The notes under the pieces: model-generated
What the model saw: the letters and a program-made list of their open reading frames with translations, nothing else
Told to the model about the DNA's origin: nothing
Databases searched by the model: none
In this document: in pieces, positions 38,262 to 40,117 of the stretch
How positions within the stretch are numbered: position 1 is the first letter of the stretch
Layout of the letters: each line of letters starts with the position of its first letter
Made by a program: the position numbers and the translations under genes
NCBI GenBank assembly: GCA_903878285.1
Contig: CAIRHB010000033.1
Location: forward strand, 1 to 40,117
Direction: 5' to 3'
Length of the DNA: 40,117 nt
From: Candidatus Adlerbacteria bacterium
Lineage (GTDB): Bacteria; Patescibacteriota; Minisyncoccia; Phycocordibacterales; SBAW01

Positions 38262-38290
38262 TTAGATATACCCCAGCCGGGTAAAGAGCG
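38262..38290. repeat. Direct repeat copy 1 (displaced NUDIX 3' end: encodes ALFTRLGYI* on minus)
   Basis: TTAGATATACCCCAGCCGGGTAAAGAGCG; 28/29 identical to 39171-39199. Confidence 0.9.
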
Positions 38291-38305
38291 CGCTATACTA
38301 TTTTC

Positions 38306-38692
38306 ATGTTGAAGCAGTTTTTGCAATGGATTCGACTCAAGCAGGTGCTGCACGAGAGCACCTACAAACCACCGCTGTTTAAAGAGGGCGAGATTTGGTG
38401 GTGCTCGATGGGAGAAAATATCGGCATTGAGACAAACGGCAAAGGCGAACGCTTTACTCGACCCGTGTATATTCTGCGTAAGTACGATAAATACACCTTT
38501 CTCGGGTTACCACTCACCACCAAAGGAAAAGTGGGTACCTGGTACTGCCCGATTGAGTTTAACGACAAAAAACAGACCATCGTGCTCGCTCAAGGTAGAA
38601 CATTTGATTATCGTCGACTCAAAAACCAAATGGGACATCTTGGTATACAAGACCGAGAAAAAATATGGAATGCGTACCGCGCACTGCACTAA
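38306..38692 (+). CDS. MazF/PemK-like toxin domain protein
   Basis: KEGEIWWCSMGENIGIETNGKGERFTRPVYILRKYDKYTFLGLPLTTK. Confidence 0.75.
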   Translation: MLKQFLQWIRLKQVLHESTYKPPLFKEGEIWWCSMGENIGIETNGKGERFTRPVYILRKYDKYTFLGLPLTTKGKVGTWYCPIEFNDKKQTIVLAQGRTFDYRRLKNQMGHLGIQDREKIWNAYRALH

Positions 38693-38933
38693 AAACATAG
38701 AACCCCCGCACATCGCGGGGGGCGTGGGTTTCCCCAAATACTCCTCTAGTATAGCACGACCACGTGCTGTGCAACAAGTACTCACACTCCACCGCCAAAC
38801 CGCGCGGGGCGCAATCTTGACCAAGCGGTCGATATCTTCTCGCGTCTCTTATCCCCAGAGATTTGTGTATCGCGGGTTGGCAGGGGCGAGTATAATCACC
38901 ACAGGTAAGAGTGCGTGGCAATTTTTGTCCAAC

Positions 38934-39036
38934 TAGGGAGAATACAGCGCGGGCGTAGCATATGTTGGAAATGCAATGCCCGTAGCAAGGTTTTGATGAC
39001 GGTTCGAATCCGTCCGCCCGCTCTGTATTCTCCTTA
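38934..39036 (+). ncRNA. tRNA-Gly-like RNA (core 38949-39022) inside an extended helix
   Basis: GCGGGCG/CGCCCGC acceptor, U73, GACGG-TTCGAAT-CCGTC T-arm, GCAT/ATGC D stem; flanks GGAGAATACAG/CTGTATTCTCC are complementary; anticodon arm does not fold canonically. Confidence 0.65.
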
Positions 39037-39170
39037 AATGAACAACTCTCGTATAATAATACTGCTGTTTTTCAACACTTTCGTTTTTGTTGTTTAGCTA
39101 TGTCTAGTGTCAGTGTATTACATACTCGGCGGTGTGTATATGGTAGATGTCCACATCCTCCATCTAGGTT

Positions 39171-39199
39171 TTAGATATACCCCAACCGGGTAAAGAGCG
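39171..39199. repeat. Direct repeat copy 2 (genuine 3' end of the NUDIX gene)
   Basis: TTAGATATACCCCAACCGGGTAAAGAGCG. Confidence 0.9.
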
Positions 39200-39629
39200 A
39201 GACGGAGGGCGGGGTGAGTTTGAGGTCGCGCAGCTCGGGCAAAGGAGACCAGCGGTACTCGCTAAACTCGCTCGGGTCGAGCGTGATTGCTACGTCGCTT
39301 GCAGGTTTGTCGAGCACTACTTTGTAGATTTTGAACTGCATTTTTGCCAACACACGCTCGCCCGTGTCCTTGAGTGTTTTTTCCGACTCGCCGCGACCGA
39401 CGTCGTCCACAAGTGTTATGTCGAACGGAGAAATGTCGATACCGAGCTCCTCGTTAACCTCGCGCACCAGCGCCTCTACAGGGTCCTCGCCCTGCTCGAT
39501 GCCGCCACCAGGGATATGCCAGCAGTCGAGATACACGCCGCCCTTGTTTGGATCTTTCATCGCTTGAAACAACTTCCCATCACTCGAAAAAATCAGTGCC
39601 GACACAATCTCCCGCTCGATGGTTCTCAT
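39171..39629 (-). CDS. NUDIX hydrolase
   Basis: NUDIX box GGGIEQGEDPVEALVREVNEELGID. Confidence 0.92.
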   Translation of the reverse strand: MRTIEREIVSALIFSSDGKLFQAMKDPNKGGVYLDCWHIPGGGIEQGEDPVEALVREVNEELGIDISPFDITLVDDVGRGESEKTLKDTGERVLAKMQFKIYKVVLDKPASDVAITLDPSEFSEYRWSPLPELRDLKLTPPSVSLFTRLGYI

Positions 39630-39749: not shown

Positions 39750-39980
39750 TTATTTCTGGGGACGGGATTTTCGCTCCAAAATAGACCGTTGTTCTTGTAT
39801 ATAGGCGATGCGTGCACCTGTTTTCTTTAACAACACCGAGCACTTTTCTGCTGGACTGGGAGACAAGATAACCTCAAGCCGACCCCGACTTTGCAAGAGT
39901 GTCACCAATGGAGCATAATCGCCATCACTCGCCACAAGCACCGCTTTCTCCAAACGACCTTCATAAAAATCCTGTGCCCG
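39750..39980 (-). pseudogene. NYN-domain (LabA/DUF88-like) C-terminal fragment
   Basis: DFYEGRLEKAVLVASDGDYAPLVTLLQSRGRLEVILSP…LLKKTGARIAYI; upstream part not open in this frame. Confidence 0.6.
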
Positions 39981-40117
39981 TGAATCTCAAAACTCCTCCA
40001 CTGTTCATTACAGCCACCAAACGCAAAAAGAGCACGTACAATAGAGTCAGTTACAAGCTAGCTCTTTTGCACTATGCCCTTGTTGCACACTCATCATATC
40101 GTCGATTTGTATTGCTG

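Follow-up and report, generated by a model that had tools for sequence, protein, structure and literature searches.

We analyzed a 40,117-nucleotide stretch of DNA (the window: bases 1-40117 of contig C33) from a Candidatus Adlerbacteria genome of 930,463 bp in 44 contigs (G000), and propose that it contains a two-gene module made up of a solitary toxin of the MazF/PemK fold and a convergent RNA of ~50–60 nt at the toxin 3' end. In the reading that we favor, to which we assign a probability of roughly 0.55, the RNA would serve as the antitoxin and the module would have entered the chromosome through one homologous end. Judged by sequence comparison, toxin and RNA are a conserved unit in Patescibacteria, with the RNA linked almost exclusively to the toxin, and duplicated adjacent sequence flanks this unit at a higher frequency than it does other genes. 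More tentatively, and at somewhat less than even odds, these loci may represent a widespread toxin–antitoxin type of the Patescibacteria, in which a MazF-fold toxin would be neutralized by one convergent ~55-nt RNA that has an ACAAAU leader and two hairpins, and which would spread from genome to genome as a compact module, borne on gene fragments, by one-ended recombination that leaves genes partly duplicated.

The toxin and a candidate convergent RNA

38306–38692, plus strand: MazF/PemK-like toxin gene, 128 aa (Pfam, Foldseek, and codon changes relative to the sister genome)
38693–38741, minus strand: candidate small RNA, with hairpin P2 at 38726–38734 and the GC-rich hairpin P1 at 38703–38721; architecture conserved in the family
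38748–38753, minus strand: −10 box of the candidate small RNA (TATACT), with a weak −35 box (TTGTTG)
38294–38299, plus strand: −10-like TATACT, a possible leaderless promoter, 6 nt before the toxin start codon

The original prediction for this DNA described a small cassette, consisting of a MazF-like gene and a tRNA-like RNA, between direct repeats. The MazF-like gene was confirmed by its match to PF02452 (32.5 bits; cutoff, 23.1), and its sequence profile matches MazF/EndoA/PemK. The predicted structure (mean pLDDT, 82.5) has MazF structures as its best Foldseek matches (E = 4.1e-7), and one Arg and one Thr, which we take to be the catalytic residues of the MazF literature, are invariant among aligned family members. 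Relative to the sister genome G005, which shares ~92% DNA identity with G000 in the cassette region, the gene has 13 synonymous and 2 nonsynonymous codon changes, indicating that the toxin is under purifying selection. An N-terminal helix (residues 1–20; window 38306–38365) is conserved in the family ahead of the MazF domain; K3, F5, W8, and K12 within it are invariant in the aligned set, and it is not covered by solved MazF chains.

We collected 30 PemK-family loci of relatives and then 80 more by a search of genome contigs, with most of the latter coming from Parcubacteria, Nomurabacteria, Kaiserbacteria, Yanofskybacteria, and similar taxa. The original prediction had held that the toxin has no antitoxin beside it. 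For proteins this stands, as no family of neighboring ORFs recurs in more than 4 of the 80 loci; the 134-aa neighbor in the window matches nothing in Pfam or NCBIfam, and PADLOC returned no match. What the prediction overlooked, however, is a conserved candidate small-RNA gene convergent to the toxin at its 3' end.

The region directly 3' of the toxin shows strong sequence conservation across the family. A convergent promoter with a score of at least 9.5 and no more than 200 bp from the toxin stop codon is present in 70 of 77 members, compared with 11.5% of background windows and with 17/77 on the toxin strand, and its layout is TTGACA, a spacer of mostly 16–17 nt, and TATACT. The predicted transcript of ~50–60 nt starts near ACAAAU and runs through a 3–4-bp hairpin with a short loop (P2) into a second, GC-rich hairpin (P1) that reaches almost as far as the toxin stop codon. 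The two helices persist across many differing sequences, with changes in paired bases supporting the two hairpins; because a plain MAFFT alignment misaligns the variable hairpins, pairing statistics were computed by script. The two hairpins occur together in 34 of 48 RNAs (mean for shuffled sequences, 2.2), and ACA is found in the leader of 46 of 57 RNAs, against an expectation of 15.6.

A strict motif that combines promoter, leader, and hairpins occupies the toxin 3' end at 37 of the 80 loci and occurs elsewhere three times in 1.37 Mb, one of these occurrences adjoining another toxin copy. Since these loci had been picked for the toxin, we made an independent search of 384 whole genomes with a 16-nt core, ACAAATGGCTTCGGCC. 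All 12 matches are convergent at a toxin 3' end and stand behind promoter-like boxes, 11 of them with a substantial toxin match and 1 with a C-terminal remnant, whereas the reversed control pattern gave two matches. When 12 toxin loci were compared with Rfam at gathering thresholds, only ordinary tRNAs were returned; thus, Rfam lists no family for the candidate RNA at that threshold. Among the titles and abstracts that literature searches brought up, none describes such a partner RNA.

In the window, positions 38693–38757, which span the candidate RNA and its −10 box, are identical between G000 and G005, and the nearest toxin outside the genus (57%, in G053) is accompanied by a recognizably related RNA, ACACATTTGGGAATTCCCACG. 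We suggest that the small RNA would be transcribed from its own promoter and would neutralize the toxin, most likely by binding it, as in a type III system, through the ACA-containing 5' end, which is conserved and unpaired, or alternatively as an antisense RNA. MazF enzymes cut at ACA or UACAU.

Several further observations concern the toxin and RNA families. In L165 (22–3867), four PemK genes form an array; two of them are identical, and several stand behind a copy of the same downstream gene's 5' end. In L141 (4880–4990), an extra copy of the small RNA without its own toxin is found where pheS ends, immediately ahead of a PemK gene. A leaderless-promoter signature is weakly enriched before the toxin (boxes before 36/80 family members and 155/519 comparison cases) and was set aside, as was a phage origin, given just one toxin relative among viral contigs. 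A GTCAA motif had raised the idea of IS200/IS605-like ends; it is accounted for as the −35 box of the convergent promoter.

Duplicated sequence around toxin loci

38262–38290, unstranded: left direct repeat, an orphan copy of the NUDIX 3' end (two genome copies only)
39171–39199, unstranded: right direct repeat, the final NUDIX codons with the stop (repeat comparison)
39171–39629, minus strand: NUDIX hydrolase gene, with an ATG start at 39629 (Pfam)

The repeats at the NUDIX locus are as originally described. The sequence TTAGATATACCCCA[G/A]CCGGGTAAAGAGCG occurs twice on the same strand, 909 bp apart and with 28/29 positions identical; the right copy forms the 3' terminus of the NUDIX gene (Pfam NUDIX, E = 2e-16), and the left copy is an orphan outside any NUDIX ORF. 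The check for further copies that the prediction had called for, run across the genome with up to 3 mismatches, found just these two, and random occurrence of the pair is negligible.

The same cassette is present in G005, where the two repeats and the tRNA-like RNA occur and the toxin shares 98% amino-acid identity. There the repeat is 47 bp long at 89% identity, and by eye it takes in a terminator-like hairpin past the stop codon. The cassette is thus older than the split between the two species rather than a recent insertion, and on this comparison it is old and stable. The empty NUDIX site that the prediction proposed to seek in sister genomes was looked for and not found: G005 is occupied, and in the next relative with the NUDIX gene (G027, 78%) the neighbor is unrelated and there is no repeat, so the genomes compared offer no clean empty site. 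The NUDIX repeats appear to be an insertion scar that predates the split from the sister species.

Similar scars surround other members of the family, and several of the 30 PemK-family loci in relatives have direct repeats on both sides. Tight flanking repeats were found at 10/71 toxin loci, compared with 16/4522 shifted windows and with 3/239 other genes of 100–300 aa (p = 4e-5); one of these three repeat-flanked control genes is itself a PemK. The repeats are 29–123 bp long and unrelated in sequence between loci, being copied from whichever gene is adjacent. Within genes the copies are mostly of 5' parts, and the cassette ends show no conservation.

Two comparisons with uninterrupted relatives illustrate the pattern (the names nrdA, dnaE, and pheS come from reading translations). 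A second PemK of G000, on contig C37, is bordered by a 56-bp orphan copy of the dnaE start on one side and by the intact start of dnaE on the other. The start of dnaE is uninterrupted in G005, where the native upstream region matches the sequence before the orphan copy in G000. Likewise, a PemK in G049 has a 92-bp piece of pheS on one side and the intact gene on the other, and pheS is uninterrupted in G191. In G049, promoter and start of the native type remain at the left copy; at the right copy, the promoter-like box is a different one and the start is in frame, as expected of the upstream region of a donor.

These results bear in two ways on the original claim of integration at a gene 3' end. 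The repeats do look like insertion scars, given their enrichment around the family and the uninterrupted dnaE and pheS genes of relatives. The attachment-site mechanism, however, does not fit repeats of such variable length that are unrelated between loci and derive mostly from 5' parts, nor the absence of an integrase among the ORFs of the segment, a point on which the prediction was right. Imported DNA with one homologous end fits these comparisons better than either site-specific integration or transposition. In this process, a gene fragment common to donor and recipient would provide the homologous end, and the other end of the imported DNA would be joined illegitimately. The outcome would be A-B-[toxin-sRNA-A']-B'-C, where sRNA is the small RNA and B is the direct repeat, with the gene left intact, and the NUDIX repeats would be one such scar, older than the sister split. 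In naturally competent bacteria, homologous recombination at one end together with illegitimate joining at the other has been described (PMC3240628, PMC3784515).

The tRNA-like RNA and the duplicated nrdA upstream region

38934–39037, plus strand: tRNA-like RNA with an acceptor helix longer by 14 bp; tRNA core at 38949–39022
38783–38896, plus strand: duplicated copy of the nrdA upstream region (83% to G000:C24:457-570); two copies in G005 too

The tRNA-like RNA of the original prediction is real, in that its core matches the Rfam tRNA model, the only model above threshold, at 43.1 bits (cutoff, 29). It is also the weakest of the 43 tRNA matches in the genome. All 14 of the extra acceptor positions are paired, compared with 2–7 of 14 in 35 ordinary tRNAs of the genome, giving an acceptor helix of 21 bp in total with one interrupting mismatch. 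The structure that accommodates both genomes, G000 and G005, gives an anticodon loop of 8 nt rather than the normal 7; ARAGORN assigns the G000 sequence to Ala(AGC) and leaves the type undetermined in G005. Between the genomes, both partners differ in two acceptor pairs and in one anticodon-stem pair, which, with two sequences only, is suggestive rather than conclusive. YrlA and other tRNA-like bacterial RNAs likewise carry a tRNA-like fold on a long helix.

The prediction did not hold, however, in making this RNA a component of the cassette alongside the toxin. A homologue in a sister genus (G064; 101.8 bits) lies at a different locus with no PemK nearby. The tRNA-like RNA is therefore an independent gene, and the same homologue rules it out as the partner of the toxin. 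Relatives with long perfect helices occur in pairs on G064:C62 and G062:C20 of a sister genus, and some ordinary-looking tRNA genes with a long complementary leader and trailer are found in other Patescibacteria (L096-L099, in G272, G294, G239, and G162).

In front of the tRNA-like RNA lies a second duplicated piece, which the prediction had not noticed: the 114-bp copy of the nrdA upstream region. Its end provides a TATAAT box upstream of the RNA, and the duplicate may serve as its promoter. The two nrdA-upstream copies are 99% identical to each other in G005 (C13:8335-8449) and 83% identical in G000, and in G005 the nrdA upstream region stands directly behind the NUDIX gene. The ~126 bp that separate the tRNA-like RNA from the right repeat (39045–39170) are unrelated between G000 and G005, whereas both flanks align at 92%. 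At the contig end, a fragment of an NYN-domain gene (39753–40117) appears to continue at G000:C24:1-456, in which case nrdA would come next in G000.

Alternative explanations and known systems

Several findings weigh against a toxin–RNA module that arrived through one homologous end. A U run is frequently missing from P1, and the RNA may therefore continue into the antisense of the toxin. The RNA of the window has diverged, with a weak −35 box and no ACA in its leader, and the small-RNA claim is consequently weaker here than for the family. Approximately 86% of toxin loci have no detectable tight repeats, and the dnaE comparison is complicated because G005 has a different PemK just upstream of dnaE. 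Furthermore, the window holds two duplicated pieces, the NUDIX end and the nrdA upstream region, for which a single one-ended insertion is insufficient alone. The last point bears directly on a rather unlikely alternative, in which the NUDIX 3' end, the nrdA promoter, and all that lies between them underwent tandem duplication and the toxin then took the place of the left NUDIX body. The second copy of the nrdA upstream region leaves duplication and loss some probability at the NUDIX locus, and in G005 each outer part of this unit exists in two copies, with matching order and similar spacing. Yet no residual NUDIX body was detected, a possible NUDIX promoter remnant in the left unit relative to the right is unconvincing (8/300 shuffles reach its score), and the similar scars at unrelated loci of the toxin family would be left unexplained.

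It is also unlikely, in our view, that the conserved element downstream of the toxin is no antitoxin at all and serves instead as a signal for toxin transcription or for the end of the toxin mRNA, or as a recombination end. Such a role would suit its location, which is at the toxin 3' end and close to the right cassette boundary, and P1 could terminate the toxin mRNA, but the hairpins have no T run in the toxin orientation and a near-consensus promoter points inward. A terminator would need neither the leader sequence nor P2, both of which are conserved, and the right boundaries fall at variable distances past the element. We consider it quite improbable that the cassette is a small non-autonomous element that enters gene ends by site-specific recombination or transposition, with the repeats as attachment sites or target duplications. 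Such an element would account for repeats that border the cassette, for the regenerated gene, and for the enrichment of repeats around the toxin family, but the repeats share no sequence across their 29–123 bp, neither cassette end is conserved on the left or the right, the targets are mostly 5' parts of genes, and the cassette has no integrase or transposase. The combination of unconserved ends and a missing recombinase is evidence against transposition in particular.

A toxin paired with a convergent RNA would have implications beyond this locus. Patescibacteria have many PemK/MazF-like toxins for which no antitoxin gene is recognizable; should every one of them have a convergent partner RNA, these apparent orphans would be complete systems and would constitute a further kind of RNA-controlled MazF. 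The repeat scars would offer a handle on gene uptake by reduced genomes, in which imported DNA would spare an essential gene at its landing site by duplicating part of it. Homology-facilitated illegitimate recombination and merodiploids made by transformation show the same combination of one homologous end, one illegitimate end, and partial duplications (PMC3240628, PMC3784515), although here we infer one-ended recombination from genome comparison only. Integrative elements at gene 3' ends, in contrast, have an integrase and a constant attachment core, and the cassettes of this family have neither.

Among toxin–antitoxin systems, the family shares with type II MazEF/PemIK the toxin family, the fold, and a conserved Arg and Thr that match known active-site residues, but it has no recurrent adjacent protein antitoxin and carries an extra N-terminal helix (KDFDxW motif) before the MazF domain. 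As in type I systems, an RNA gene lies on the opposite strand beside the toxin; however, the toxin has a MazF fold rather than being a small hydrophobic peptide, and the predicted hairpins stop before the coding region; readthrough past P1 into RNA antisense to the toxin may occur. Type III systems (ToxIN, CptIN, and TenpIN; PMC5086642) are alike in that an endoribonuclease with a MazF/Kid-like fold stands beside a structured small RNA as its sole conserved partner. In those systems, the RNA forms a pseudoknot and is processed by the toxin; for the family described here, two hairpins are predicted. The type III RNA is an upstream tandem-repeat array that shares one operon with the toxin and is separated from it by a terminator (PMC5086642), whereas the RNA of this family is single-copy, downstream, and convergent, with its own promoter.
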